Virus record (IMG/VR): IMGVR_UViG_3300009370_000184
Span: 1-22,561 of that record
DNA: 22,561 bases
Reading direction: 5' to 3' (one strand)
Source: a virus
Shown piece by piece: positions 1-16,100 of this stretch. The position numbers were made by a program, and so were the translations under genes. Below the pieces are notes generated by a model. That model was given only the letters and a program-made list of their open reading frames with translations, was not told the DNA's origin and did no database searches. The number at the start of each line of letters is the position of its first letter. Positions within the stretch are counted from its first letter, which is position 1.

Positions 1-131
1 TATCTGGGACAGGATGGATAAAAGAAGGTATAGTCAGAAAAGTTATGAAAATTAATAATGAATTCGTTGATGCGGCAGTATATGGTATGTTAAAAGACGA
101 ATGTAAATGGATAAAAGGATATAAAAAATAA
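1..131 (+). CDS. Probable terminase large subunit, C-terminal fragment
   Basis: An open frame enters from the left edge (first full codon at 3) and stops with TAA at 129-131, giving the last 42 residues of a protein. The tail contains INNEFVDAAVYGMLK, which resembles the 'NE.lDc.vYa.aa' C-terminal signature of GpA-type phage terminase large subunits. Its position directly upstream of the portal gene also fits a terminase, the ATPase/nuclease motor that packages DNA through the portal. The catalytic domains lie outside the window, so the call rests on a short motif and on gene order. Another late protein cannot be excluded. The next gene starts 1 nt after this stop. Confidence 0.42.
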   Translation, partial: SGTGWIKEGIVRKVMKINNEFVDAAVYGMLKDECKWIKGYKK

Positions 132-132
132 T

Positions 133-345
133 ATGGGCGGAAAAGCACAACCACAAATGCCACCACCAGTAGATACTAGAGTAGAAGATGCGGCGGCTAA
201 AGCTGAAGCTAAATTAGCGGCTGAAAAGAAAAAAATGATTGATACAAAGAAAAAAGGTATGGGTTCTACTATTTTAAATACAGGTGAAGGTATAGAAGAA
301 GAAGCAACAACTTCAACTTCATTATTAGGTGGTAAAAAATATTAA
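133..345 (+). CDS. Small portal-adjacent protein, hypothetical
   Basis: A 70-residue protein with a Pro-rich N-terminus (QPQMPPPVD), a charged Ala/Lys/Glu helix at about residues 18-42, and a C-terminal stretch GMGSTILNTGEG followed by SLLGG. Small proteins of this layout ('...r.STiLt...g......tLLG') are recurrent between terminase and portal genes in podoviruses. Their function is not established; some are virion-associated. The helix is probably amphipathic or coiled. Its TAA stop overlaps the portal ATG by one base (TAATG at 343-347), so the two are probably translationally coupled. The gene is real by context and conserved layout, but no biochemical role can be read from it. Confidence 0.6.
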   Translation: MGGKAQPQMPPPVDTRVEDAAAKAEAKLAAEKKKMIDTKKKGMGSTILNTGEGIEEEATTSTSLLGGKKY

Positions 346-2030
346 TGGCAACTACATTTGAATATATTAAAAAAAGATGTTCTGCATTAGAATCTGACCG
401 ACAAACTTGGGAAGATCATTGGCAAGATATTTTAGATTATGTAATGCCAAGAAAAGCAGATGTTACTTTTGTTCGTGCTAAAGGAACAAAACGAACAGAA
501 GTATTATTTGATTCAACAGCTATCACAGCAAATAATTTATTAGCCGCAAGTTTACAAGGAACACTTACATCACCTTCATTACCTTGGTTTCATTTAAAGT
601 TAAGAGATAAAGAATTAAATGAAAATAGAGATGTTCAATTATGGTTAGAAGATTCAGCAAGAAGAATGTATGATACATTTAATGAATCTAATTTTAATAC
701 AGAAGTACATGAATTATATTTAGATTTATGTTCAGTTGGAACAGGCTCTATGTTTGTAGAAGAAGGTAATAATGGATTTGCAAATGATGGAATACATTTT
801 AATACACTACATATTGCAGAATATTTTATTCAAGAAAATATAAATGGACAAGTAGATACACTTTACAGAAAATATAAACTTACTGCAAGACAAGCAATTG
901 AAGAATTTGGTGAAGATAATTTAGGTGAAAAAATAATAGAAGCATCAAAAAATAAACCAGATAAAAATTTTAATTTTATTCATGCTATAGAACCTACAAA
1001 AGATTATGAAAGAGCATTAGGAAAAGCATCAACTAAATTACCATTTCATTCTTGCCATGTTTGTGTTGAAGATAAAATGGTTGTTCGTACAGGCGGCTAT
1101 AATGAATTTCCTTATTTAGTTCCTAGATGGGCAAAAGCAACAGGGGAAATTTTTGGAAGATCGCCTTCTTATAATGCATTACCAGATATTAAAACTTTAA
1201 ATAAAGCAGTTGAAATAGGATTAAAGGCTTGGGCAAAAGCTATTGATCCACCATTACTTGTTCAAGATGATGGTGTAATTGGTAGAGTTAGAATGACACC
1301 TGCTGGAATTACAGTAGTTAGATCAGATGGTGCGATTAAACCATTACAAATTGGTTCTAATTGGCAAATAACTGATATGAAAGAAACTCAATTAAGAACA
1401 GCAATTAGACAAGCATATTATTCAGATCAATTACAATTACAAGAAGGCCCACAAATGACGGCAACAGAAGTACAAGTTAGATATGAATTAATGCAAAGAC
1501 TTCTTGGCCCAACATTAGGGAGATTTCAAAGTGAATTTTTAAATCCATTAATTGAAAGAACATTTGGTATTATGTTAAGAGCAGGTGCATTAATGCCAGA
1601 ACCAGATGTAATTAAAGGACAACAAATAGATGTAGAGTATGTTGGCCCACTTGCTCGTTCTCAAAGAATGGAAGAATCTGTTGCTATTGAAAGATTATAT
1701 GGATTAGCAATGAATGTTGTACAAGTTGATCCATCAATTATGGATAATATTAATCATGATGAAGCTATTAGATTAAGAGCAACTCTTTTAGGTGTTCCTA
1801 AAACTGTTTTAAGAGGTAGAGATGAAGTAACAGAATTAAGAGAAGAAAGAGCAGAACAACAACAACAAATGGCATTAGCACAACAACAACAAGCGGCAGG
1901 TGATGCAATGCAATCACAAGCTAAAGCGGCTAAAGATATGGCTGATCCTAGAGTACAGCAAATGATGGAAGAAACGCAAGAAGATATGGGTGTATCACCA
2001 GAAACTTTAGCTGAAAGTGTACAACAGTAA
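345..2030 (+). CDS. Portal (head-to-tail connector) protein
   Basis: A 561-residue protein of the T7 gp8-like head-to-tail connecting family (T7 gp8 is 536 residues). The N-terminus FEYIKKRCSALESDRQTWED and the following YVMPRK segment match the helical start of this family. The middle has the typical RWAKATGEIFGRSPSYNALP and KAWAKAIDPPLLV stretches, and LLGPTLGRFQSEFLNPLIER is the conserved helical region before the crown. The last 65 or so residues are Gln/Ala-rich (QQQQ runs), as is common for portal C-termini. Twelve copies would form the ring at the capsid vertex through which DNA is packaged and ejected. A weak AGGTGG lies at 327-332, and the gene overlaps both neighbours by one base in TAATG junctions. 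Confidence 0.93.
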   Translation: MATTFEYIKKRCSALESDRQTWEDHWQDILDYVMPRKADVTFVRAKGTKRTEVLFDSTAITANNLLAASLQGTLTSPSLPWFHLKLRDKELNENRDVQLWLEDSARRMYDTFNESNFNTEVHELYLDLCSVGTGSMFVEEGNNGFANDGIHFNTLHIAEYFIQENINGQVDTLYRKYKLTARQAIEEFGEDNLGEKIIEASKNKPDKNFNFIHAIEPTKDYERALGKASTKLPFHSCHVCVEDKMVVRTGGYNEFPYLVPRWAKATGEIFGRSPSYNALPDIKTLNKAVEIGLKAWAKAIDPPLLVQDDGVIGRVRMTPAGITVVRSDGAIKPLQIGSNWQITDMKETQLRTAIRQAYYSDQLQLQEGPQMTATEVQVRYELMQRLLGPTLGRFQSEFLNPLIERTFGIMLRAGALMPEPDVIKGQQIDVEYVGPLARSQRMEESVAIERLYGLAMNVVQVDPSIMDNINHDEAIRLRATLLGVPKTVLRGRDEVTELREERAEQQQQMALAQQQQAAGDAMQSQAKAAKDMADPRVQQMMEETQEDMGVSPETLAESVQQ

Positions 2031-2248
2031 TGCCTTCTGATGAAGACATATTAAAACAATTAAAACAAGATTACAGAATTACTTTTTCATCTAAAGAAGG
2101 TGAAAGAGTATTAGCTGATATTCAATCAGCTTATTATCATAGAGGTTCATTTATAAAAAATGATCCCCATGAAACTTCATACCGAGAAGGTCAAAGATCG
2201 GTAATAATCAGAATAATAAATCTAATGAAGGAGGATAAAAATGTCTGA
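2030..2248 (+). CDS. Bbp19-like small head protein
   Basis: A 72-residue protein with the pattern of the Bbp19 family of small podovirus proteins: an ITFSSKEGERVLADI segment (F.t.eG..vL.di), then SFIKNDPHETSYREGQRSV (f..dp..ta..eG.RsV) and a hydrophobic helix IIRIINLM. Members usually sit between portal and scaffold or capsid genes. They are presumed head components or assembly helpers, but the role is not firmly known. The start overlaps the portal stop (TAATG, 2028-2032) with no Shine-Dalgarno sequence, which suggests coupled translation. Its last codons contain the AGGAGG (2229-2234) that serves the next gene, so the two reading frames overlap by 8 nt. Confidence 0.72.
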   Translation: MPSDEDILKQLKQDYRITFSSKEGERVLADIQSAYYHRGSFIKNDPHETSYREGQRSVIIRIINLMKEDKNV

Positions 2249-3062
2249 TACGACCACTCAAAACGACAATCCTGTACAGGAATCTACTGTATTAGGATCG
2301 CAAGTAAGTGATAATCAATCTGAAGATTGGAGATCATCCTTACCAGATGAATTAAAAGCAGATGCTACTTTAAGTAATATTAAAGATTTAGAATCTGCGG
2401 CTAAAACATTAATTCATCAACAAAAAATGTTAGGTAGTAGAATACCATTACCTAAAACAGATGAAGAAAGGTCTGAACTTTATACAAAGTTAGGAAGACC
2501 AGAAAATGCATCTGGATATAAAGTTGAAATACCACAATCACATCAAGGGTATTTTAAAGAAGATCAAGTAAATGAGTTTAGAAATGTTGCTCATCAAATT
2601 GGTTTAAATAATGAACAAGTTAATGCTTTAATTAATTATCAAATGAAAAGTATTGACAATGATGTAAATAATGAACCAAGTAGATTAGCTATAGCTAAAC
2701 AAGAAACTGAAAATGCTTTAAAACAAGAATGGGGTTTAGAATATGATAAGAATATTCGTTCTGCACAAAGAGCATTAGATGTATATGGTGATCCTGAAAT
2801 GAAAGAATTAATGAATGGAGAAGCAGGTAATCATCCTGCTGTAATTCGTTTATTTTCAAGATTAGGTAAAGAAGTTACTGAAGAAATGGCTAAAAATACA
2901 CAAAATAATACATTAGCTGTATCACCTTTAGATGCTAAAACTGAAATTGATAGTATTTATGCTAATGCAAATCATCCTTATCATAAGCCACAAGATAAGG
3001 AACATAAGAATGCAGTAGAACATATGCGTCAATTACATGAAAAAGTATTTGGAAAATCATAA
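2241..3062 (+). CDS. Capsid assembly scaffolding protein
   Basis: A 273-residue acidic, Gln/Asn-rich, mostly helical protein. The N-terminal third carries the podovirus scaffold signature: WRSSLPDELKAD, then a helix with LESAAKTLIHQQKMLGSRIP, then LYTKLGRPENASGYKVE. The remainder is predicted helix with no enzyme motif. The C-terminus (EHMRQLHEKVFGKS) is basic, as expected for the capsid-binding tail of scaffolds such as those of T7 gp9 and P22. It would template procapsid assembly and leave before or during packaging. The gene lies directly before the major capsid gene, the same place as T7 gene 9. A strong AGGAGG at 2229-2234, 6 nt upstream, sets the start. The -35 of the predicted capsid promoter lies inside its last codons. 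Confidence 0.87.
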   Translation: MSDTTTQNDNPVQESTVLGSQVSDNQSEDWRSSLPDELKADATLSNIKDLESAAKTLIHQQKMLGSRIPLPKTDEERSELYTKLGRPENASGYKVEIPQSHQGYFKEDQVNEFRNVAHQIGLNNEQVNALINYQMKSIDNDVNNEPSRLAIAKQETENALKQEWGLEYDKNIRSAQRALDVYGDPEMKELMNGEAGNHPAVIRLFSRLGKEVTEEMAKNTQNNTLAVSPLDAKTEIDSIYANANHPYHKPQDKEHKNAVEHMRQLHEKVFGKS

Positions 3063-3077
3063 GATTTTTGTTATAAT
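3049..3077 (+). promoter_or_regulatory. Sigma70-like promoter for the capsid unit
   Basis: TTGGAA at 3049-3054 (4 of 6 to the -35 consensus) is followed by a 17-nt spacer and a perfect TATAAT at 3072-3077. TG at 3069-3070 supplies an extended -10. Transcription would start near 3084, about 11 nt before the first stem of the leader RNA. In an AT-rich window TATAAT alone is weak evidence. The correct spacing, the TG and the position between scaffold and capsid genes raise it. If the phage has its own RNA polymerase, a different promoter could act instead. Confidence 0.55.
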
Positions 3078-3090
3078 CTAAATATCTAAT

Positions 3091-3260
3091 TCGCCCTAGT
3101 TTTGGATAACGAATGGGTAGCCGTGATTGGCTTTAAACTTCCGAATGATCGTATCGTTTACGATAAGGTTTCCCGCAAGGATAAAAGCCGATTAACGGAA
3201 TATGGTAAAATACCAATGTGGTACTTACCCCCTATTCTATAACAAGTAAAAACTAGGAAA
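3091..3260 (+). ncRNA. Structured 5' leader RNA of the capsid gene, possible cis-regulator
   Basis: No open frame fills this gap, which is about 40% G+C (67 of 167 bases in 3091-3257) and richer than its surroundings. Nested complementarity is extensive. P1: 3095-3103 with 3249-3257, nine perfect pairs. P2: 3111-3119 with 3226-3230 and 3234-3237, nine pairs around a 3-nt bulge. P3: 3124-3134 with 3184-3194, eleven pairs including two G-U. Hairpin P4: TATCG 3152-3156 with CGATA 3161-3165 and a TTTA loop. Hairpin P5: 3203-3207 with 3211-3215. UUCCG at 3139-3143 also matches CGGAA at 3196-3200, crossing P3 as a pseudoknot. The 3' strand of P1 contains the capsid Shine-Dalgarno sequence. I do not recognise a named RNA family. 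It could be a regulatory leader, an mRNA-stabilising or processing element, or a ribozyme. Confidence 0.7.
3255..3258 (+). promoter_or_regulatory. Capsid gene ribosome-binding site inside leader stem P1
   Basis: AGGA lies 7 nt before the capsid ATG at 3266 and is the only Shine-Dalgarno-like sequence near that start. Its first three bases (3255-3257) are paired with CCU (3095-3097) in the outermost stem of the leader, so the fold would hide it from ribosomes. Confidence 0.6.
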
Positions 3261-3265
3261 AAAAT

Positions 3266-4126
3266 ATGTCAACTCAAATTACTACAGCTTTTGTTGAACA
3301 GTATAAGAGTAATGTATTTCATCTAGCACAGCAAAAAGGTTCTCGTTTAAGAGATGCTGTTAGAAGCGAAACTGTAACAGGGAAGGCACACTTCTTTGAA
3401 AGAATCGGCTCTACTGCGGCTCAAAAAAGAACTTCACGACATTCAGACACTCCAAGAATGGACACTCCACATAGTAGAAGAAAAGTTACTATGGATGACT
3501 ACGATTGGGCAGACTTGATTGATAATGAAGACAAAGTGAGAATGCTTATTTCTCCACAATCTGAATATGCACTAGCAGGTGCATACGCAATGGGGAGAGC
3601 AATGGATGATGCGATCATATCAGCGGCGACAGGCAATGCTTATGGCGGAGTAAGTGGTGGTACTACAGTAGCACTACCTTCTGCACAGAAGATTGTTCAT
3701 GGATCAGCGAATCTTACAATAGCTAAACTATTAGAAGCTAAAAAGATTCTTGATGCGGCTGAAGTTGATCCAGATGAAGCAAGGTTTTTGATTTGTTCAG
3801 CAGATCAAATTCAAGACTTTCTAAATATAGCGGAAGTTAAATCATCTGATTACAATACTATCAAAGCACTAGCACAAGGACAAATTGACACCTATTTAGG
3901 TTTCAAATTTATCCGTAGTGAGAGATTAGGGACAGATGCAACACCATCAAGACAGGTTCTAGCATTTACTAAATCAGCAATAGGTTTAGCTGTGGGTGCA
4001 GATATTCAAACAAAAATATCTGAAAGAGCAGATAAAAACTATGCAACGCAAGTATTTCTATCTATGACAATCGGGGCAACTCGTATTGAAGACGAAAAAA
4101 TGGTAGAGATTGCTTGTAACGAGTAA
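3266..4126 (+). CDS. Major capsid protein
   Basis: A 286-residue protein that forms the icosahedral shell. The N-terminus (TTAFVEQYKSNVFHLAQQKG), the central TPRMDTPHSRRKVTMDDYDWAD, and the ALAGAYAMGRAMDDAI helix are the hallmarks of the phage capsid family found in many non-T7 podoviruses. These proteins are expected to have the HK97 fold. The SERADKNYATQVFLSMTIGATRIEDEKMV tail is the usual C-terminal strand region with the conserved 'GA.r.edekvv'. It is shorter than T7 gp10A (345 residues) but normal for this family. Codon use is somewhat less AT-rich than in neighbouring genes, which fits high expression. Translation starts at the ATG 7 nt after AGGA in the structured leader, so output may be controlled by that RNA. 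Confidence 0.92.
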   Translation: MSTQITTAFVEQYKSNVFHLAQQKGSRLRDAVRSETVTGKAHFFERIGSTAAQKRTSRHSDTPRMDTPHSRRKVTMDDYDWADLIDNEDKVRMLISPQSEYALAGAYAMGRAMDDAIISAATGNAYGGVSGGTTVALPSAQKIVHGSANLTIAKLLEAKKILDAAEVDPDEARFLICSADQIQDFLNIAEVKSSDYNTIKALAQGQIDTYLGFKFIRSERLGTDATPSRQVLAFTKSAIGLAVGADIQTKISERADKNYATQVFLSMTIGATRIEDEKMVEIACNE

Positions 4127-4142
4127 TAGGAGGATTATATAA

Positions 4143-4595
4143 ATGGCTTATTCAGTACAAAAAACAAAATGGTCACAAAATAATCCAACTGAAAGGGTAA
4201 AAACGAATGAATTTGCTGGTAGAGTTAGAATTGCATACGCAACTTACGAAGCGAGTGCAGAACAATCTACTATTGAAATGTTCAATTTACCTAACGGTGC
4301 GAGAATTATTCGTGGCTATTTAGGACATGATGCTTTAGGATCATCTACTACATTATCGGTAGGGTATGCGGCACACACATCTTCAGCAGGGGCAACAGTT
4401 GCCGCTGATGTTGATGAGTATAAAACTGCGGCGGCTTCTACTTCTGATGCAGTTACAGCACTTCCAGCAACTATGGCACTTGGTGCTTTTAGTGAATTGG
4501 ATGCAGATGCTACAGGTGTTCCAGTTACAGTTACTCTTGCAGGTGCTAATGGTACAGGTACTATTAGTCTTGCTATGGAGTATGTAACAGACTAA
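4143..4595 (+). CDS. Capsid-associated structural protein, possible decoration protein
   Basis: A 150-residue beta- and Ala/Thr-rich protein without membrane segments or enzyme motifs. Residues 46-75 (MFNLPNGARIIRGYLGHDAL followed by SSTTLSVGYAA) match a recurring podovirus pattern, 'LP.GA.i......DaLG.sttl.vG', in small structural proteins encoded next to the capsid gene. The C-terminal third (VPVTVTLAGANGTGTISLAMEYV) reads as beta strands of a jelly-roll-like domain. It lies between the capsid stop and a terminator, has a good AGGAGG (4128-4133, 9 nt before ATG), and should be co-transcribed with the capsid. That suggests an abundant head protein such as a decoration or minor capsid protein. 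The specific function is inferred from position. Confidence 0.55.
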   Translation: MAYSVQKTKWSQNNPTERVKTNEFAGRVRIAYATYEASAEQSTIEMFNLPNGARIIRGYLGHDALGSSTTLSVGYAAHTSSAGATVAADVDEYKTAAASTSDAVTALPATMALGAFSELDADATGVPVTVTLAGANGTGTISLAMEYVTD

Positions 4596-4615
4596 TCATC
4601 AAACTAACAAACAAA

Positions 4616-4661
4616 GCATAGGCGATATAGATTGATTTCTTGTCGCCTATGTGATATTTTT
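4616..4661 (+). terminator. Rho-independent terminator after the capsid unit
   Basis: CATAGGCGA (4617-4625) pairs perfectly with TCGCCTATG (4643-4651), and a G-U pair (4616/4652) extends the stem to ten. The 17-nt loop is AT-rich. Five T (4657-4661) follow after a short gap, TGATA. The T-tract is not directly against the stem, so termination may be partial, or the hairpin may be a processing site. Its position between capsid genes and tail tubular protein A is that of Tphi in T7. Confidence 0.62.
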
Positions 4662-4669
4662 ACATAATT

Positions 4670-5251
4670 ATGGCTACAGAAGTTTCTATTTGTTCAAACG
4701 CATTAAGAAGATTAGGTGATGATCCAATTACATCCCTAACTGATGATACAGAAAGAGCAAGATTATGTAATTCCTTTTACATAGATGCACGAGATGCAGT
4801 TTTAAGATGTCATCCGTGGAATTTCGCTATAACAAGGGCATCTTTAGCCCAATTATCTGATACACCTTCCTATGGTTTTGCATATCAATATGCTTTACCT
4901 ACAAGTCCATATTGTTTAAGAGTTTTAGGAATGGAATATGCTGATTACATATTCAAAGTAGAAAACTATTCTACTCATGGAAGGGTTTTATTAACAGATG
5001 AGAGTACAGCTAAAATTTTATATATTGCTAGGATTACAGATACTGCACAATTTGATCCAATGTTTACGGATGTTCTCACAGCAAAATTAGCTGTAGATTT
5101 AGCTTATCCAATAACAAATAGTGCTTCATTACAAACACAAATGCAGAAACTGTATCAAACTAAACTTTCCGAAGCCAGAAGTATTGATGGACAAGAGGGA
5201 TTTCAAGATGATCTTGTTTCTGATACATTTACTGACTTTAGGAAAGATTAA
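4670..5251 (+). CDS. Tail tubular protein A (gp11-like)
   Basis: A 193-residue protein nearly equal in length to T7 gp11 (196). The family signature is clear: EVSICSNALRRLGDDPITSL at the start, ARLCNSFYIDARDAVLRCHPWNFA, FAYQYALPTSPYCLRVLG, then DPMFTDVLTAKLAVDLAYPI. The protein forms the dodecameric gatekeeper ring under the portal and joins it to the nozzle. No Shine-Dalgarno precedes the ATG, which sits 9 nt after the T-tract of the terminator hairpin. Read-through transcripts would therefore carry the hairpin just upstream of the start. The stop overlaps the next ATG (TAATG, 5249-5253), so A and B are probably translated together. Confidence 0.94.
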   Translation: MATEVSICSNALRRLGDDPITSLTDDTERARLCNSFYIDARDAVLRCHPWNFAITRASLAQLSDTPSYGFAYQYALPTSPYCLRVLGMEYADYIFKVENYSTHGRVLLTDESTAKILYIARITDTAQFDPMFTDVLTAKLAVDLAYPITNSASLQTQMQKLYQTKLSEARSIDGQEGFQDDLVSDTFTDFRKD

Positions 5252-7692
5252 TGGCACGAGTACATCCTTTTCAAACAAATTTTACTGCTGGAGAATTAAC
5301 ACCAAAACTTGCTGGTCAAGTTGATTTTAAAAAATATAATAATGGTGTTGAAACTATGGAAAATCTTACTGTTTTTCCACAAGGTGGTTGTCAAAGAAGA
5401 AGTGGTAGTAAATTTGTATGTGAAGTAAAAGATTCAACAACAAATGTAAGATTAATACCTTTTGAATTTAATATTACACAAGCATATGTTTTAGAATTCG
5501 GAAATAATTATATAAGATTTTTTAAAGATAACGGACAAATAACTGAAGCAGATAAAGCTATAACAGGTATTACAAAAGCAAATCCTGCTGTAGTAACATC
5601 TGCATCACATGGTTTTTCAAATGGAGATCATGTATGGATTAATAGTGTTGGTGGAATGACACGATTAAATGGAAGAAAATTTATAGTAGATAATGTAACA
5701 ACAAATACTTTTGAATTAACAGGTGAAAATTCTACAAGTTATGATACTTATACATCTAGTGGATATGCTTCTAAAGTTTATGAAATAGCTACAACATACA
5801 CAACAACTCAAATATTTGAAATTCAATATACACAATCAGCAGATGTTATGTATATTGTACACCCAGATCATAAACCAAGAAAATTAGAAAGAACAGGTCA
5901 TACATCTTGGACTTTAACAGATGTAGATTTTAAACGAGGGCCTTATTTAGATTCAAATACAGGATCAACAACAATGACACCAAGTGGTACTTCTGGTTCT
6001 GTAACAATTACAGCATCTACAAGTACATTTGTTGCAGGTGATGTAGGTAGATTAATAAAAATAAAAGATGGACACGCAAAGATTACAGCTTATAGTTCTG
6101 GTACATCTGTAACAGCAACAACAACAGATGATTTTGCTAGTACAAGTGCAGAAACAGATTGGGCTTTAGGTTCTTGGAGTAGTACATTAGGTTATCCTAA
6201 AACAGTATCATTTTTTGAACAAAGATTAGTATTTGGTGGATCAACAAGTTATCCCCAAACAGTATGGGCTAGTGAATCTGGATTATATGAAGAATTTGAT
6301 GCTGGAGATGCAAGTGCCGCAGATGCTTTTATTTATACGATTGCCGCTAATAGAGTTAATGTAATTAGATGGTTAGCACCTGCTAGAGATTTAATTGTTG
6401 GAACTGTAGGCGGTGAATTTAAAGTTGGAAGACCAACAGGTGAACCTTTAAAACCAGATAATGTTAATATTGCACAGCAAACAACATTTGGTGCTTATAC
6501 AACAGCACCTATTCAAATAGGTAATGCAGTTTTATTTGTACAAAGACAACAAAGAAAAGTTAGAGAATTTTCATACAGATTTGAAGATGATGCTTATTTA
6601 GCACCAGATATGACTTTATTAGCAGAACATATAACTGATACAGGAATTATAGATGTTGATTATGCACAAGAACCAGATTCTATTTATTGGGCTGTTAGAA
6701 CTGATGGCACATTAATAGGAATGACATACCAAAGAGAAGAAGATGTTATAGCTTGGCATAGACATATTTTTGGTGGATCAAATAAATTTACATTTAATGG
6801 TGCAAGTGATGTAACAGATTATACTACTGATGCTAATAATAATGGATATGTAACAATTTCATCTCATGGATTATCTACAGGTGATGAAGTAGTTTATAGT
6901 GCTGGTGGCGGAACAAAAATACCAGAATTAGAAGAAGGTGAAACTTATTATGTATATCGTAGAGATGCTAATACATTAGAATTTGCAGATACATATGACC
7001 AAGCTATTGATAGAACAATAAGACAAATAGCAGATGGTGCAGGTGCTAGTCATACTCTTACAGTAAAAGCTAAAATTAAATCAGTTACATCTATAAATCA
7101 AACAGAAGAAAATCAAGTATGGTTAGTAGTAGAAAGAAGAATTAATGGTTCAATGGTAAAGTATATTGAATATCTTGATAAAAAACTTAATATGGATTGT
7201 ACATTACCAGCATTAGTTAATGGTGGAACTACAATAGTAACAGGTTTAAATCATTTAGAAGGTGAATCAGTACAAGTATTAGTAGGAGATGCTGTATTTC
7301 CTAATCAAACAGTATCTGGGGGTTCTATTACAGTAACTTTACCTACAAATGCGGCTTATAAGACTATAGAGATAGGATTAGGCTATACATCTAAAATAAA
7401 AACATTAAAAGTTGAAGCAGGATCACAAGCAGGTACTGCACAAGGGCGAAAAAAAAGGTATAATGAAGTTATGGTAAGATTATTAAAAAGTGTTGGAGTT
7501 ACTATAAATGGGGATCAATTACCATTTAGAACATCTGCTACACCTATGGGACAAGATATTCCAGAATTTACTGGAGATAAACGAGTAAGTAATCTAGGAT
7601 GGGATAGAGAAGGACAAATAGAAATTAAACAAACACAACCCTTACCTATGACAGTTTTGGGTATAACAGGAACAATGGTAACAAGTGATTAA
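5251..7692 (+). CDS. Tail tubular protein B (gp12-like nozzle)
   Basis: An 813-residue protein comparable to T7 gp12 (794). The opening FQTNFTAGELTPKLAGQVDF and the following ENLTVFPQGGCQRRSGSKFV are diagnostic, as are SFFEQRLVFGGSTSYPQTVWAS and LAPARDLIVGTVGGEF in the middle. It forms the nozzle at the end of the short tail. Two small beta domains are inserted: residues about 104-152 (SASHGFSNGDHVWI, GMTRLNGRKF) and about 521-600 (SSHGLSTGDEVVY, then GETYYVYRRDANTLEF). Both share an 'sHGfs.GD.V' pattern and are probably related to each other; they may be surface decorations. AGGA at 5240-5243 gives 7-nt spacing to the ATG. Confidence 0.94.
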   Translation: MARVHPFQTNFTAGELTPKLAGQVDFKKYNNGVETMENLTVFPQGGCQRRSGSKFVCEVKDSTTNVRLIPFEFNITQAYVLEFGNNYIRFFKDNGQITEADKAITGITKANPAVVTSASHGFSNGDHVWINSVGGMTRLNGRKFIVDNVTTNTFELTGENSTSYDTYTSSGYASKVYEIATTYTTTQIFEIQYTQSADVMYIVHPDHKPRKLERTGHTSWTLTDVDFKRGPYLDSNTGSTTMTPSGTSGSVTITASTSTFVAGDVGRLIKIKDGHAKITAYSSGTSVTATTTDDFASTSAETDWALGSWSSTLGYPKTVSFFEQRLVFGGSTSYPQTVWASESGLYEEFDAGDASAADAFIYTIAANRVNVIRWLAPARDLIVGTVGGEFKVGRPTGEPLKPDNVNIAQQTTFGAYTTAPIQIGNAVLFVQRQQRKVREFSYRFEDDAYLAPDMTLLAEHITDTGIIDVDYAQEPDSIYWAVRTDGTLIGMTYQREEDVIAWHRHIFGGSNKFTFNGASDVTDYTTDANNNGYVTISSHGLSTGDEVVYSAGGGTKIPELEEGETYYVYRRDANTLEFADTYDQAIDRTIRQIADGAGASHTLTVKAKIKSVTSINQTEENQVWLVVERRINGSMVKYIEYLDKKLNMDCTLPALVNGGTTIVTGLNHLEGESVQVLVGDAVFPNQTVSGGSITVTLPTNAAYKTIEIGLGYTSKIKTLKVEAGSQAGTAQGRKKRYNEVMVRLLKSVGVTINGDQLPFRTSATPMGQDIPEFTGDKRVSNLGWDREGQIEIKQTQPLPMTVLGITGTMVTSD

Positions 7693-7706
7693 GGAGATTA
7701 AATAAT

Positions 7707-8150
7707 ATGGGATGGTTTATGCCAGTAATGATGGCAGTAAGTACAGGACTTACTGTTATGGGACACAAACAAAATATAAAAAATATAAAAGCAAATTTAG
7801 CTTGGAAAAATTATGAAAGAAAAATTAATGATCTTCATGCAAGAACTGTAGCGGCTAAAAAAGCGGCTAAAACTTTTAGCGAAATGAGAGCAAGTGTTGG
7901 TGGAAGTGGCATTCAATTTACAGGTTCACCTTTAATAGTAGCTAATGCGGATTGGAAAGAATATCAAGAAGATTTAATGTGGATGGATCAAGGTATTTTT
8001 ATTGAGGGAATGAAAGATCAAACAGAAGCAACAAGTTTAATTGCTAGTGAATATTATAAAGCTGGTAATACTTTAATACAAGGAGCAATAGGATATAAAA
8101 ATTATAAGACCAATAAAGCAATAGCCGAAAAAATGGGTATTACTGTTTAG
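7707..8150 (+). CDS. Internal virion protein, gp14-like
   Basis: A 147-residue protein with a short hydrophobic N-terminal helix (MGWFMPVMMAVSTGLTVMG), a basic Lys/Ala helix, and a conserved SVGGSGIQFTGSPLIVANAD motif. Long helices follow (DQTEATSLIASEYYKAGN). This layout is typical of the smallest internal core protein of podoviruses, the counterpart of T7 gp14 (196 residues). That protein is ejected first and inserts in the host outer membrane as part of the DNA channel. The assignment rests on layout and on its place directly after tail tubular protein B and before larger core proteins. A good AAGGAGA lies about 9 nt upstream. The TAG stop shares its last base with the GTG start of the next gene. 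Confidence 0.72.
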   Translation: MGWFMPVMMAVSTGLTVMGHKQNIKNIKANLAWKNYERKINDLHARTVAAKKAAKTFSEMRASVGGSGIQFTGSPLIVANADWKEYQEDLMWMDQGIFIEGMKDQTEATSLIASEYYKAGNTLIQGAIGYKNYKTNKAIAEKMGITV

Positions 8151-8335
8151 TGGTTTTTTTAATAAAAGTATGGGATGGAGAAAGTATGATATTTGAAGGT
8201 TATAGTAAAAAAATACCAAAAGCTGGTCAAGATTTTAAGGCTTGGACAATAACTAAAGATAAAAATGGTACAGTACAACAAGCATCATTTAGTCCAGCTA
8301 GATATAGGATAACTTATGAAAATAAAGAGATATGA
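8150..8335 (+). CDS. Small hypothetical protein between core protein genes
   Basis: A 61-residue, probably beta-rich protein (FLIKVWDGESMIFEGYSKKI, then DFKAWTITKDKNGTVQQASF). I do not recognise a family. The GTG start overlaps the preceding TAG (TAGTG, 8148-8152) with no Shine-Dalgarno, so expression would rely on coupling. An in-frame ATG at 8186 would yield only 49 residues and lose the conserved-looking start. The end overlaps the next gene by 20 nt and contains that gene's AGGA (8306-8309). The compact overlaps on both sides and a non-random composition support a real gene. It might be a cofactor for core-protein assembly, but nothing in it shows this. Confidence 0.55.
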   Translation: MVFLIKVWDGESMIFEGYSKKIPKAGQDFKAWTITKDKNGTVQQASFSPARYRITYENKEI

Positions 8336-10154
8336 GAGTGTAGGCGGTACTAAAATCCAAAGCAATCGTTCTTTATCAACAGGAACGGCTGGAAGTAATG
8401 CTATTGCACAAATAGGAACACAAGCAATTAGTAGTGTCTTGCAATATGGTGCTTCACAAAATGCTTTAACAGCAAAATTAAGAAGATTAGAAATCCAAAC
8501 TAATATTGAAAATGGAACTACAGGTATAACTAATGATACACAAATATTTTTAGATGGAACAAAAGAAAGTAAGTTTTGGTCAACACCAGATGTATGGTTA
8601 AAAGAGTATGAAAAAAATAAACCTAAATGGGAAAAGAAATATAAAGAATCTATGGATGAACAATCTTGGAAAGAATTTGAACCTTTTTATAATAGAAAAG
8701 TATTTGAACAAGAAGCAAAATTAAGAGAATTAGTATTTGACCAAAAAGTAAATAATGGTGTTACTGCTTTAGAACAATCATCAGTAAGATATGACAATGA
8801 TTTAGCTACTGCTACATCTAAAATAGCAATAAAATCAGCTTATGAAAATTTTACAAAAATAACATTACCTAGATTTAGTAATCTTTTAATAGGTACAGAA
8901 CAATATACAGATGCAATAGCTACTGCTGAAAATAAAGCTAATAGTGCATTAATATATTTAACAGCATCAGATGGTGTTATAACAACTGATCCAAACGGAA
9001 GAACAGTTAAAGATCATAAAGCTATATTAGCTAACTTAAAAAATCCTAATTATAAAATACTAGATATAAATGGAAAAGAAGTAGGTGTAAAACATCCTGT
9101 ACGACAAAAATTAATAACAAATGAAGGTACTGCCGCAACTAATCAAGATTCTGTATGGAAAAAGGTTAGATCAGAAAATTCTTTAAATGATTATAAAGAA
9201 TTTAACAAAGAATTAGTAGCTTTTTTAAATGGTGATACAACAAATATGGATTCATTTTTAGGTAGAGTAGAAAATAATAAAAATTTAGAACCAGATCAAA
9301 TATCAGCTTTAAGAAACGCATTTAAGACAACACAATCACATATCGCAAGTGGTACATCAACTTGGGACACAGCCGCAGGAATGCAAACAAAAGCTGTTTT
9401 AACTTATTTAGTAAATGCTGGTGTGATTGATACAAAATCTGAAATGCAAGTTATTAATAATGCACAGTTAAATGGTTTATTAAAACCAGAAGATGCTACT
9501 AAATTAATGGATAATGCAAAGAAATATACTAAAGAAAGAAATAAAATAAAATTAACAATGACAAAGAATGCTGTAACTATGGTGTCTAAAGCATTAAATA
9601 TTGATAGTAGTTTTATGGACACATTTGAACAAACAGATAAAACAGGTATGACAGGGGCAGAACAGTTTGGTTTATTAATGTCATTAGCAAATCAATCTAA
9701 AAATCCTAAAGAAGCATATGAAGCATTGTTAAATATTAATCAACTTTTAGCAGATGGAGAAAGAAAAGGTTTTACTTGGAAAGAAATGCTTTTAGATAAA
9801 GGTGGGCCAAATTATATTTTGGATGATATTATTACAGTACATAAAGAAAATATTGATAATGCAAATCTCACAGAATGGACAAAAGGATTAAGTAGTCCAG
9901 AAGAAGATAAAAGTGTTAAAATATTAGGAGATTCTTATTTTATTACAGATGATTACTTTACTAATAAAACATCAACAGTAGAAAAAATTGAAATGCCACA
10001 AAGAAATGAAGGAGAAACTATTTTAGAATACGCAAAAAGAATAGGTACTATACTTCCTAAAGACAATAATCCATTTTTTGCTTCGTGGGTATCTAATGAT
10101 ATGAGTATAGGTGATTTAGATGTTTCTGGTATTTTAATAAAAAGTACAAAATAA
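8316..10154 (+). CDS. Internal virion protein, gp15-like
   Basis: A 612-residue, almost wholly helical, soluble, charged protein. The N-terminus has the pattern of podovirus middle core proteins: a short basic start, then SNAIAQIGTQAISSVLQYG and LRRLEIQTNIENGTTGITND. Later come KWEKKYKESMDEQSWKEFEP and a long series of helices. It is comparable to T7 gp15 (747 residues), which stacks inside the capsid around the DNA and forms the periplasmic part of the ejection channel. Order after the gp14-like gene and before a transglycosylase protein matches T7 14-15-16. AGGA at 8306-8309 with 7-nt spacing supports the ATG at 8316. No catalytic motif is visible. Confidence 0.74.
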   Translation: MKIKRYESVGGTKIQSNRSLSTGTAGSNAIAQIGTQAISSVLQYGASQNALTAKLRRLEIQTNIENGTTGITNDTQIFLDGTKESKFWSTPDVWLKEYEKNKPKWEKKYKESMDEQSWKEFEPFYNRKVFEQEAKLRELVFDQKVNNGVTALEQSSVRYDNDLATATSKIAIKSAYENFTKITLPRFSNLLIGTEQYTDAIATAENKANSALIYLTASDGVITTDPNGRTVKDHKAILANLKNPNYKILDINGKEVGVKHPVRQKLITNEGTAATNQDSVWKKVRSENSLNDYKEFNKELVAFLNGDTTNMDSFLGRVENNKNLEPDQISALRNAFKTTQSHIASGTSTWDTAAGMQTKAVLTYLVNAGVIDTKSEMQVINNAQLNGLLKPEDATKLMDNAKKYTKERNKIKLTMTKNAVTMVSKALNIDSSFMDTFEQTDKTGMTGAEQFGLLMSLANQSKNPKEAYEALLNINQLLADGERKGFTWKEMLLDKGGPNYILDDIITVHKENIDNANLTEWTKGLSSPEEDKSVKILGDSYFITDDYFTNKTSTVEKIEMPQRNEGETILEYAKRIGTILPKDNNPFFASWVSNDMSIGDLDVSGILIKSTK

Positions 10155-10157
10155 ATT

Positions 10158-13100
10158 ATGGCACAATTAACAGCATTACAATTATATCAAGCTGGTTTTT
10201 CTGAAAGTCAAATATTAGGTTTTATAAATGACCAAAGAAAAGCATTAAAAGCGGCTGGTTTTACTGATATAGAAATAAACGAACATTATGGAATAGGACA
10301 AACACATAGTTCCGCTATAAAACCAGAACATCTATCACCCCCTGTAGAAAATATTTATACCCAACATAATGAATTGGGTAAAATGGATCAAGTAACTAAA
10401 AATAATGAAAAGGAAAAAATATTAGATGATAAAGATATCATAGCTAAAAATGCTTTTAATAATGAAAAAATGTTATTTAAGAATTTTGCTATTGAAGATC
10501 AAAGAAATATCTTTGAAATGGCTATGACGGCTAGTAAATTATTTAAAGATGATGAAGATGGAAGATTAGGATTTATGGATAATTGGTTATCTACTGCTTA
10601 TCCATCTTTAGATATAACTAACAAAGATTTTATTAATGATTTAACAGTAGTGGAATCTTCTTTAAATGATATTTACCAAGGTAAAAAAGATAAAGACTTT
10701 CATGCTCGTAGTTTAAAAAATAAAATTCTTATAGGTGAGTACCAAGTTGATAAAGCAGTAAAGGAAAAAGAATTAATTAAAGCACAAAAAGAAAAAGAAT
10801 CAAAAAATCCAGCAATATTACATACTACGGCAACAACAGGTTTTAATACTTATTCATTCTTACAGTTTATGAAAAATGAATATGAAGTAAATGATTTTCA
10901 AATGATTTGGTTTAATGAAGCTGTTAGTTTTATATCAGCTATTGAATCAGATAATAGAAATATAATTAATCCTGATCCAAATAGTTCAGCTTCTGGTTTT
11001 TGGCAAATGAATAAAGATACAATGAAAACTGCTTTAACAGCTTATGCACGAAATATGCAAAAGTATGATTCTAATTGGCAATTTCCAGAATGGATGGAAT
11101 TAGCATTTGAACATTTAGATATGACTAAACTTGATCCAGACCAGCAAAGAGCATTAGTTATAGCTAATTTATATAATAGAAAAGGAACAGATGAATTAAT
11201 TAAACAAATAATGACAGGTGATAGAGAGCAACAATTAAATGCATTAAAAGAATTATATAAAACACATCATTATGCTGGAAAAATATCAAAAAAATTAGAA
11301 GAAAGAATAGAAAAATATTTTAATAGTTGGGGAACACCAGATTATGGATATATGCATGGACAATTAGCATTTTGGCCTTCAACAAATGAAGATGGATTTA
11401 ATAATCCATTTGGTAAAGATAAAGAATTTTTAAAAGAATCATGGAAGTTTTTGACTGATATTCCTTATTATGCCGCAGAAGCCGCAGAAAAATTAGGTAT
11501 TCCATTAAATAGAGGCCATTACAATATTTTTTCTAATGGCTATACTTTATCTGTAAATGGTTTTATAGATAAATTTCATCAAATATTAAATGAAGACCCA
11601 AATATTTCAGTACAAGAAGCCTACCAAAAAGTATTTATGTGGCAAGAACAAAGTTTTGGTAGAGAGATAGCTTCTGGTTTTGTAACAATAGCTAATGATT
11701 TTCCTTGGATGGTAGCAGGATGTGTAGGGGCTAATGTAGCCGCATCTGGTGTATATGCCGCAACAGGTGGTACAGGATTAGTAGCATCACCTATTGTATG
11801 TGGTGCTGGTGCATTTGCTTTACCAGAAGTTATAAGAGATTCTTATATGAGAGCAATAGATGCTGGTGAAGTAGATAATTTTGATGATTTTTTAAAACAC
11901 TTTTTTACTCTTAAAACTGCTTGGACAGGTACTAAATCTGCGGCAGTAGGGGGTGCAACATTAGGAGTAGGTAGTAAAGTTACAAAAGTAGTTGGGCCAA
12001 AATTAGGTGCAGGTACAATAGGAGCAAAAGGTGCATATGTAGCAAATAAAAATGCAAGTATGTTAGCAAAAAGTGGAACATTAACTGCAAGAGTAGGTTC
12101 TGAAGTTACAACAATGGTAACTTTACAAAGTTTATTAAATGGTCATGTTCCTACTAAAAAAGATTTTGCTCATGCGGCTGTTATGATATTTGGTATTCAT
12201 GCAACAGTAAAAGTAGGTAGTAATGCTATGGGTACAATGAAAGGTATCTATAAAAGATTTGGAATACATCCTAAAAATATAGTTGAACTTACTAAAAATA
12301 ATCCAAAAGCAAGAGATCAATTAGCAAATGGTATTGTTCCAGATGAAGTAAATGCTTTAGCTACACAGCTAATGAAAAAAGCAGAAGAAACTACTAATAA
12401 AAAAGTATTACCTATATCTAAATATAAGAATAATGAAAAGGTAACTACAAATAATGGTGAAGAAGTTATTGTTGTTGGTAAAGAAGTGCAGAATGGAAAA
12501 AGTGTTTTAATAGTTAAACAGCCAAATGGATTAAAAACACCTATACTAGAATCAGAAGTAAGAAAAATAAATAATGAAAATATAGAAATCAAAATAAACA
12601 ATAACAAAAAAATAGAAGTTAATGAAACTGTAGATAAAGATTTTGTTAAAAGACAAGAAAATGGTGAATTTAGTAAAGATATTGTTGAAGTAACTAAAGA
12701 TGAAACAGGTATTCATATAAAAGATTTTGATGGAAAGATAAATAAATCTACCCCTTTACAAGCAGTTAATGATGTAGGAGGAAAAATTAAAATTACTTCT
12801 GTAGATAATAAAGCATCTGCTAATCCTTCAATGTTAGTTATTAATAAATACTATCCTAAACTAGCAAAAGTAATTCAATCTTCAAAAGAAACAAGAATGG
12901 AAGGTAAATTTAAAACATCTAAAGATATAATTGACCATGTTTTTAAAGGATTAGATAAATCATATAAAAAAATATCTATTGTTTTTGGTATTAAAAAAGG
13001 TGAGTTAGTTAATGCTGATACTTTAGTAGGAAGAATAGGAAAAGAGTATGTTTCCTTTTCACGAAAAGCATACAATGAATTAATCAAATTTACTGATGTA

Positions 13101-16100
13101 GATGGTAAAGTAAAAAATGCAAAATTAGTAGCTAGTGATCCTAGTAAACCTATAGTGTTTATACATCCTAAATCTAGTGAACCTATCGGTATATTAATGA
13201 CAAGAAAAATTGATGGGGAATTAAAAACACAAGCACATACTTATTTTAGAAATCATAAGATTAAAGAAGATATGGATGGGATGCACTATGATCGTGTTAA
13301 TAGTACAAGAGATGGTAATAATTTTGAAGTACCCCTAGATGAATATACATCTAGTAGAGCAGAACAAGGTTATAAAGATGTAGCTTGGAAAAGAATCTAT
13401 AATAATGCAAAAGGTATAGATTTAGATTCTATGGTAGATTTAGTAGAAATTTTCATAAAAAAATCACCTGAAATTAAAAATCTTTCACCTAGATTAAGAG
13501 GCTTCTTTCAATTTAAAGGTAAAAAAGCACCTAGAGTAGTTATCGCTAGAAAACTACAAGAAATGCCAGAAAAGTTATATATGGTTTTTGCACATGAAAT
13601 TGGGCATATGATAGATTATCTACCTAACAAAACTTTAGCAAGAGGTAACATACTTGGTTCTATGGCTACTCTTAAAAAAATGATGAATGAATGGATAGAT
13701 GGAAAGAATGATGGTGCTAGACCTTTGGATATAAAAGAAATTAATGCTCTTAAAAAGAAAGCAAATGAAATAGCTAAAAAATTAGAGAAGGAAACAAATA
13801 AAGAAATAGGTGAATTAAAAATTACACCAGAAACTATATTAAAAATATTTAATGATGCTAAAGCAAGAGAAAAGATACCACCAGAATTTTATGATGCATT
13901 TGCTAAATTAGGAGAATCTATAAAAAGACAAGTAGTTAAAGATGCTATGAAGGGATTAATGTCCCATCATATGAAAGCAATAGCAGATAAAATTAATGGT
14001 AAGAAAGTTGATCCTAAACTTACTGATGAAGCATACAAAATATTCCAAGAATTATTCCAAAAGGAAATCAAAGAAAGAGGACTTGTAAATAAAGAATGGA
14101 TTATGCAAGAATTAAAATCTTTAACACATAAATGGAAACCTTTTAATCCTAAAGGTGATCCTGTTTATACAAAATACAGATACTCTCCAAGAGAATTATT
14201 TGCAGACTTTATGATGGCTTGGTTATTAAAACCAAAATGGGTTGCTTTGCATACACCTAAATCATTTGAATTATGGGTTAATTTTATTGAAAGAAAACCA
14301 GCACTTAAAAAATTATATGAAGATATACAAATTGATTTGAATGCTGGAAAAGAAACAAAAATATCTAAAATAATAGCTAAAACAACTAAAGAGTTTAGAG
14401 ATTCTAATGAAACTATTATGGACACAATCAAAAATCTTTTTAAAAAGGATTGGGTAGATATATTTCATGGAGAAGTTATTGATACAATGGGTTTCTTTTT
14501 CAGAAGAAATAATGCTATGAAAGGTTGGTATAGTAGATGGCATAGTGAACAAGCTAAAGATTTAAACATATCTATAGAAAGATTTAGATACAGACATTCT
14601 CAATTAAAAAGATACGCAGATGATATGATTTATTATGTACTAGACCCTATTCTAAATCTAGGTCATAATATTAATGAGTTTGGTGTAGGATTATTTTTAA
14701 GAAATCTATATGAAAGTAATCAAAGAAAGAATGTAATTACTAGAAGATTTTTTAAGTTAGATGAAAAAGTAGAAGCTGAATTACTTAAAAAATTTGAAGG
14801 ACAATCAATAGAAGCTGTGTGGGAATACTGGGCAAAACAATATCCAGATTTAATTCCTTTAATGGATAAGTTTTATGAAATAAGACAAGCTAAAATTATA
14901 GCTGAATTAGAAAAATCACAGACATTACCACAAGAAACTATTGATTTAATGAAATCAAATCATCAATATATTACTTATGATGTAGTAAAACATTTATTAA
15001 AAAGATTACAAAAATATGGAATTAATAAAATAGCTACTTCTTTCATTGGTAAAACACAAGGTACATTTAGTATGATTAGAAATCCATTTGAAGCAACAGT
15101 AGAAAAAGATATGATTCTTTTAGCTGAAGCTAAAAAGCATGTTGTTTTACGAGATATGGTTGCATGGTTAAAACAAAATAAAGAAATTTTTGAAACATAT
15201 GAATTTTTAGGACAAGGAAATAAAGCTAGTAAACTTATTGATAAAATGGAAACGAAGTTTCTTTTACCAAAAGATCAAAAAGGTAGAATTATAGTTAAAC
15301 CTACAAAACAACAATTAAGATTAAGAACAAAACCACCAGAAGGTATGGAACAAATATCTTACTTTGATAAAGGTGAATTAACAACTTATTGGGTAAATAA
15401 ACAAGCTACTAGAATGTTTAGAGAAAATCCTTGGCAAATACAATTAGTGGCGGCAGTTATGACTAATCTTACAGGGCCATTTAAAAAATTATTTACAGAA
15501 TATAATCCTGCTTTTTGGCCTGTAAACTTTAGTAGAGATTCTTTTAATACTATAAGATTATTACCTAATGCTAGATTTTTTGATTTTAAAAATGGAGGTA
15601 GAAATTCTTGGTTAAAATATTTAGCAAAAGGTTTTGTACCTACAGTTAAATCTGTTTATGGTAGAGGAACAAAATTTACAAGATGGATGGAACAACAAAA
15701 TATGTTGATTGATATAACAGAAGGTCATAGAGGACAAGCTGGTGAAGCGGCGGCTAAAAGATTTATGGATGCTGAACAGTATCAATTAGAGTTATTTTTG
15801 AGAAAATTTAGATCAAATAAAATGGTATTAAAAACTAAATTTAATAAAAAAGAAGGTACATGGGAAGTAAAACGAGGGACATTATCAGAATTATGGCATG
15901 AAATATTTGGGGATAATGGTTTATTTGGGCATTTAGGTTTAATGGCAAGAATAGCTGAAAGATGGCCAAAAGTAAGTGGTGGTATGTATTTAGTTGATGC
16001 TGTTAAAAGAGGTGAATTAAAAATGGATGTAGGTGAAATGATGATTAGAGTTCAAGAAGATGTAGGTTCACCTTCGTTTTTAAGACAAGGTGGTGCTAAT

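Follow-up and report, generated by a model that had tools for sequence, protein, structure and literature searches.

Coat-protein operators of the MS2/R17 type are small hairpins with invariant unpaired purines that control gene expression in RNA phages, and ribosomal-protein leaders exert autogenous translational control. HTVC010P-like pelagiphages rank among the most abundant marine viruses and, to our knowledge, the timing of their gene expression is largely unknown. Structured RNAs described from marine phages include a glutamine riboswitch at ssrA in Melnitz-like phages (PMC9004378) and the manA, wcaG and PhotoRC-II motifs in cyanophages (PMC2864571).

The leader described here lies ahead of the major capsid protein gene in a fragment of a SAR11 podovirus (IMGVR_UViG_3300009370_000184, positions 1–22,561); the window, that is, the whole stretch of DNA analysed, comprises 22,561 nt. 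Like the RNAs cited, it would be a cis-regulatory RNA of a marine phage, but those accompany metabolic, photosynthetic or tmRNA genes and none of them is described ahead of a capsid gene. The literature yielded marine-phage riboswitches and motifs, none of them described before a capsid gene, an absence which, like that from Rfam, does not constitute proof. The Ocean-VI motif is listed without an Rfam entry (PMC2864571), and the comparison made here is with motifs that have one.

With translational riboswitches the leader shares a conserved 5′ domain and a mutually exclusive helix masking the Shine-Dalgarno (SD) region, both in a 5′ leader, but the gene behind it encodes a structural protein of the phage, no riboswitch family of Rfam matches it, and its ligand is hypothetical. 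It resembles the MS2/R17 operators in its small hairpins with invariant unpaired purines, a works-like analogy only, since the phage is a dsDNA phage, the leader is placed upstream of the capsid gene itself, and twin 1 × 4 internal loops are found instead of one bulged-A hairpin. As in ribosomal-protein leaders, the element occurs in a single operon and is tied to the gene that it would control, but this gene encodes a phage capsid protein and the protein partner is only putative.

Locus and gene context

The 203-nt gap (3063–3265) was confirmed. It separates the capsid ORF (3266–4126) from an ORF of 273 aa which, going by the annotation of Pelagibacter phage Baldr (EXVC032P), probably encodes the capsid assembly protein. 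The product of the capsid ORF is 96.5% identical to the major capsid protein of Baldr, and the capsid ORF is read as the regulated gene; this gene and all features given below are on the + strand. A promoter-like site, TTGGAA-17-TATAAT with an extended -10 TG, was predicted at 3049–3077. It is among the top scorers in positions 1–8400 of the window and the sole 10/12 match with a preceding TG, the total count of promoter-like sites in this region being not above that of shuffled sequences; of the 85 distinct leaders of Baldr type, 77 have a TGnTAnnnT motif upstream. Judging from the end of the match at 3077, the transcript would start at about 3084. No intrinsic terminator-like site was detected on the + strand of positions 1–8400, which include the leader, and this argues for control of translation and against transcription attenuation. 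In the virion-gene region, positions 10158–17144 are occupied by one ORF of 2328 aa, a likely candidate for a very large internal virion protein.

Positions 3091–3260 folded with RNAfold at -50.5 kcal/mol, compared with -34.4 ± 3.9 kcal/mol for 200 dinucleotide shuffles (z -4.1), none of which was as low. Folding well beyond chance expectation agrees with the compact fold that the preliminary description had seen in place of a plain leader, and the minimum free energy (MFE) structure is in essence the nested fold proposed there. The G+C content, which had been described as raised, amounts to 39%; the upstream gene has 30%, the window as a whole 32% and the capsid gene itself likewise 39%. With the covariance models of Rfam 15, no hit in the window reached the gathering threshold, the permissive mode added only chance hits, the best sub-threshold hit among them, and nine homologous loci gave no hits at E ≤ 1.

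The conserved core and its distribution

Homologues were gathered by capsid searches in IMG/VR and by a DNA pattern search. About 90 distinct Baldr-type leaders were obtained, every one directly preceding the same capsid gene, and their architecture was read by anchoring them on an invariant GGANAA. The predicted promoter is directly followed by hairpins in the order P1-P2-(P3)-P4, with P3 optional (fold A). A covariance model (R1), trained on 12 other leaders with the window excluded, matched the window at 3084–3190 (56.8 bits, E 4e-11).

P1 (3089–3114) is built of a lower stem (AUUCG 3089–3093 with CGAAU 3110–3114), a lone unpaired C (C3094) opposite four nucleotides, ANAA, on the 3′ side (AUAA 3106–3109), and a CC...GG tip (CC 3095–3096 with GG 3104–3105). 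P4 (3167–3189) carries the identical 1 × 4 internal loop, with C3172 opposite AUAA 3181–3184, between the lower stem GGUUU 3167–3171/AAGCC 3185–3189 and the apical CC-GCAA-GG (3173–3180). Between them, P2 (3119–3137) pairs AGCC 3119–3122 with GGCU 3129–3132 and is followed by the conserved UUUAAA, U(U/A)UAAA across the family, whereas the optional P3 (3148–3164) has a conserved CG(U) in its loop; changes on both sides were observed in 4/4 pairs of P2 and 5/5 pairs of P3. In a no-gap test of P1, the first four lower pairs were 94–96% paired, with 4–6 pair types at the inner variable positions, and the pairing fractions summed over six positions reached 4.99 against 3.21 ± 0.15 with the strands shuffled. 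The lower stem of P4 is wholly replaced (GACA/UGUC) in one leader (L405). The stems vary freely around nearly unchanging internal-loop residues.

In an alignment of 70 distinct rows made with the model, i.e. fitted to the structure, fold A was 95.6% paired against 79.2% in shuffled controls, 19 of the 23 pairs were altered on both sides (226 such cells against 61.5), and the covariation score was 0.382 against 0.130 and was lost when partners were slid. A MAFFT alignment (A4) agreed with the model-fitted one, and RNAalifold recovered the same helices unaided. The cmscan search and the search for covariation among homologues, both proposed beforehand as checks on the claim that the gap before the capsid gene encodes a new structured RNA, therefore gave no match to a described family and compensatory changes beyond shuffled controls. 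On the evidence of sequence comparison, the leader is a real, conserved and capsid-linked RNA family missing from Rfam. It adds to the known structured RNAs both this family and an internal-loop module conserved down to about 40% capsid identity.

All of the 158 distinct capsid leaders that were examined have the core motif: 85 Baldr-type and 67 HTVC010P-type leaders by pattern (152/158 by the pattern scan alone) and 6 by eye. In HTVC010P, Skadi, Greip, Lederberg and relatives the element is shorter and consists of P2 and P4, without P1; this version covaries independently (8 pairs altered on both sides), including the apical stem of P4. In leaders of this type (L209/L210 and others; alignment A6, columns 33/45), the base in the P2 loop, A or C, goes without exception with one base in the downstream tail, C or G (34/34), which suggests a contact between the P2 loop and the tail.

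Beyond the pelagiphages, viruses from a freshwater spring and related metagenomes, with capsid proteins about 39–43% identical, carry the hairpin about 40–80 nt before the capsid start, e.g. GGC-C-CUGUC-GUAA-GACAG-ACAA-GCC in L300. Since such hairpins were also hit in 0–9% of shuffled leaders, a single distant case is modest evidence and it is the repetition that counts. In three leaders of freshwater and related podoviruses (L299, L306 and L314), a copy with exchanged strands, ANAA on the 5′ side and C on the 3′ side, is situated about 80–110 nt before the capsid start (CUGAGG-AGAA-UC-GCAA-GA-C-CCUCAG in L299, GAAGG-AUAA-CC-GUCA-GG-C-CCUUC in L306); the exchange looks as if the C/ANAA loop were a movable module. 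Hairpins of the form GCGG-ACAA-GUC...GAC-C-CGC in the L316, L317 and L320 leaders resemble a further variant of the motif, with an inexact fit.

The C/ANAA motif was not found in the more distant capsid relatives MEP301, ZP6, VP2 and three further Vibrio/Yersinia phages, none was seen in Hodr, and no convincing copy was present in 385 genomes of Alphaproteobacteria. The one match in these genomes (L298, E 0.004) was judged to be due to chance, having no capsid gene nearby, as was L297, which sits inside an integrase gene. A third candidate bacterial copy (L293) is on contig NHDJ01000148 of the Verrucomicrobia MAG TMED56, together with a pelagiphage capsid gene and the leader RNA; this contig is probably phage sequence binned into a bacterial MAG. 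Additional hairpin copies in the window and in the Baldr, HTVC010P and HTVC028P genomes were rejected, their numbers being near the shuffled background. The element was found only ahead of this capsid family.

Predicted pairing of the Shine-Dalgarno region

The stems proposed in the preliminary description were all recovered in the sequence at the positions given there, and they form the MFE structure in the window lineage (fold B). In the outer stem, CCUAGUUUU (3095–3103) pairs with AAAACUAGG (3249–3257); the former is the loop strand of P1, the conserved 5′ hairpin, and the latter the capsid SD region, predicted to be sequestered in fold B, an identity that the preliminary description had missed. 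The pairing is compensated within the clade. The second stem joins GAAUGGGUA (3111–3119), which overlaps the 3′ strand of P1, to 3226–3237. The inner stem joins 3121–3134, which uses P2 and P4 strands, to 3184–3198, which overlaps the 3′ strand of P4; CCGU 3121–3124 pairs with ACGG 3195–3198 and GAUUGGCUUU 3125–3134 with AAAGCCGAUU 3184–3193, and both strands are paired in this way in the MFE structure of the window. In each of these two stems, own pairs were better than permuted ones (1/5000), and CCGU/ACGG of the inner stem becomes CCAU/AUGG in relatives. A 3′ hairpin, GGUAA..UACCA-AUG-UGGUA..UUACC (3204–3229), is part of the window MFE and has similar counterparts in the clade, being restricted to the extended, window-like subclass.

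Since each of the three stems of fold B (outer, second and inner) takes up strands that P1, P2 or P4 requires, folds A and B cannot coexist. The proposed architecture is the minimum-energy alternative in the window lineage and covaries as well, but the fold conserved in the family is P1-P4, which conflicts with it; the remark that the helices may be alternative states was borne out in this mutual exclusion. The pseudoknot between UUCCG and CGGAA found no support. Where clade members have C changed to U in the CGGAA strand, the change goes with one in the nested partner CCGU/CCAU (3121–3124) and not with one in UUCCG/AUUCG, and in L017 and L019 AUUCG is unchanged while the other strand passes from U to C alongside the change of CCAU to CCGU.

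When window-like relatives were folded one by one, the same alternative fold recurred, its outer stem differing in sequence from one leader to the next (P1 loop strand/SD region: CCUAGUUUU/AAAACUAGG in the window, CCCUUUAUUG/UAAUGAAGGG in L006, CCUUCUAG/CUAGGAGG in L061 and CCAUAGU/ACUAUGG in L019). Eight distinct P1 loops occur in the window clade, each complementary to its own SD region. The mean energy of own-pair duplexes was -9.98 kcal/mol, against -6.41 ± 0.54 kcal/mol for permuted partners (0/5000; 15 sequences, near-duplicates included), and the pairing held across 71 leaders deduplicated by loop and SD (0/5000), in permutations that preserve composition but not phylogeny. A second clade with compact leaders has shorter SD-pairing stems (CCUAUUA/UAAUAGG, CCUUUAA/UUAAAGG). 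The clash of the outer stem with P1 and its absence from the family at large had spoken for its dismissal as lineage noise; this was overturned by its recurrence with varied sequences and by the masking of the SD.

The P4 loop, similar in form to P1 and taken as a control, showed no excess of SD pairing (p 0.99), nor did P1 loops capped by GNRA tetraloops. Neither P4-SD nor P2-SD excess was found in the HTVC010P-type leaders, which are without P1, and masking by the P4 loop or by P2 was consequently rejected, these leaders included. Masking by P1 is a lineage trait, absent from most compact leaders and from GNRA-capped P1s. As it is limited to some lineages, it cannot be the general function of the family; in lineages with a GNRA tetraloop on P1, this hairpin leaves the SD unmasked and the core must act otherwise.

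In the predicted ensembles of the ten clade leaders with the strongest SD pairing, the unpaired fraction of the SD does not exceed 4%. By the nearest-neighbour model, fold B of the window surpasses the core in stability by about 15 kcal/mol, and P1 is almost without probability in the window and reaches 0.16 even in the isolated 5′ segment; fold A would therefore need non-canonical stability of its loops, a ligand or kinetics. An SD-masking helix that excludes the core, as in translational riboswitches, is thus indicated in the window clade by covariation and energy models, on which both folds are based.

Probable function of the leader

Taking the comparative and folding evidence together, we favour, with fair confidence, the reading of the leader as a cis-acting 5′ RNA with translational control over the major capsid protein, exerted by switching between folds A and B; it probably determines when the capsid protein is made. 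Fold B, more stable by about 15 kcal/mol, would be the default OFF state, with the SD masked. An effector recognising the twin C/ANAA loops, or co-transcriptional folding, would hold the RNA in fold A, by which the SD region would be freed and the gene turned ON. As a first guess, suggested by the strict linkage to the capsid gene, the effector would be a virion or assembly protein of the phage, with a small molecule or a host protein ranking behind it. Because masking by P1 is only an elaboration in the wider family, the core must serve a different or broader purpose, of which a putative binding site would be the simplest. More tentatively, the leaders may represent a new class of capsid translational switch in pelagiphages, in which modular, strand-swappable twin C/ANAA loops read a virion or assembly protein, or another signal of the infection stage, and so time capsid synthesis; if true, this would be the DNA-phage counterpart of the RNA-phage coat-protein operators. 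The presence of the element in every distinct capsid leader examined, with the SD-masking alternative in part of the family, offers a testable handle on capsid timing.

It is also quite possible, if short of probable, that the leader is an autogenous or protein-bound operator, to whose twin C/ANAA loops a phage protein (capsid or scaffold) binds, repressing capsid translation or stabilising the mRNA, the SD pairing being secondary. The restriction of the element to this capsid family and the near-invariant loop residues within freely variable stems speak for it, and the strand-swapped freshwater copies (L299, L306) point to recognition of the internal loop itself; such an operator is compatible with the fold A/fold B switch and differs from it chiefly in sign and agent, and its protein partner is putative.

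A small-molecule riboswitch, with the core as aptamer and fold B as expression platform, seems unlikely: the combination of a conserved core and a lineage-variable SD-masking alternative is riboswitch-like, and a glutamine riboswitch is reported from another marine phage group (PMC9004378), but there is no match to the riboswitch classes known in Rfam, the downstream genes are capsid genes only, with no metabolic association, and no copies were found in the 385 genomes of Alphaproteobacteria. Equally improbable is a 5′ stabiliser or processing element without switching, whose hairpins would shield the 5′ end of the capsid mRNA or provide an RNase site. The position of P1 at or near the predicted transcript start would suit it, as would the high yield that is needed of the capsid mRNA, but the near-invariant internal-loop residues and the co-evolution of P1 loop and SD, with its negative P4 control, would be left unexplained. 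An independent trans-acting RNA, ribozyme or packaging RNA placed before the capsid gene by chance is very improbable, since the element, although compact, promoter-led and strongly structured, has no terminator on the + strand of positions 1–8400 and no other genomic location was found for it, and it is tightly linked to the capsid start and complementary to the adjacent SD.

In the annotation of Lederberg (L208), a small ORF is placed inside the structured leader (652–744) and is probably spurious. The locus tags of two records are apparently swapped, as OQ414636 (Baldr) uses EXVC031PHodr and OQ414635 (Hodr) uses EXVC032PBaldr.
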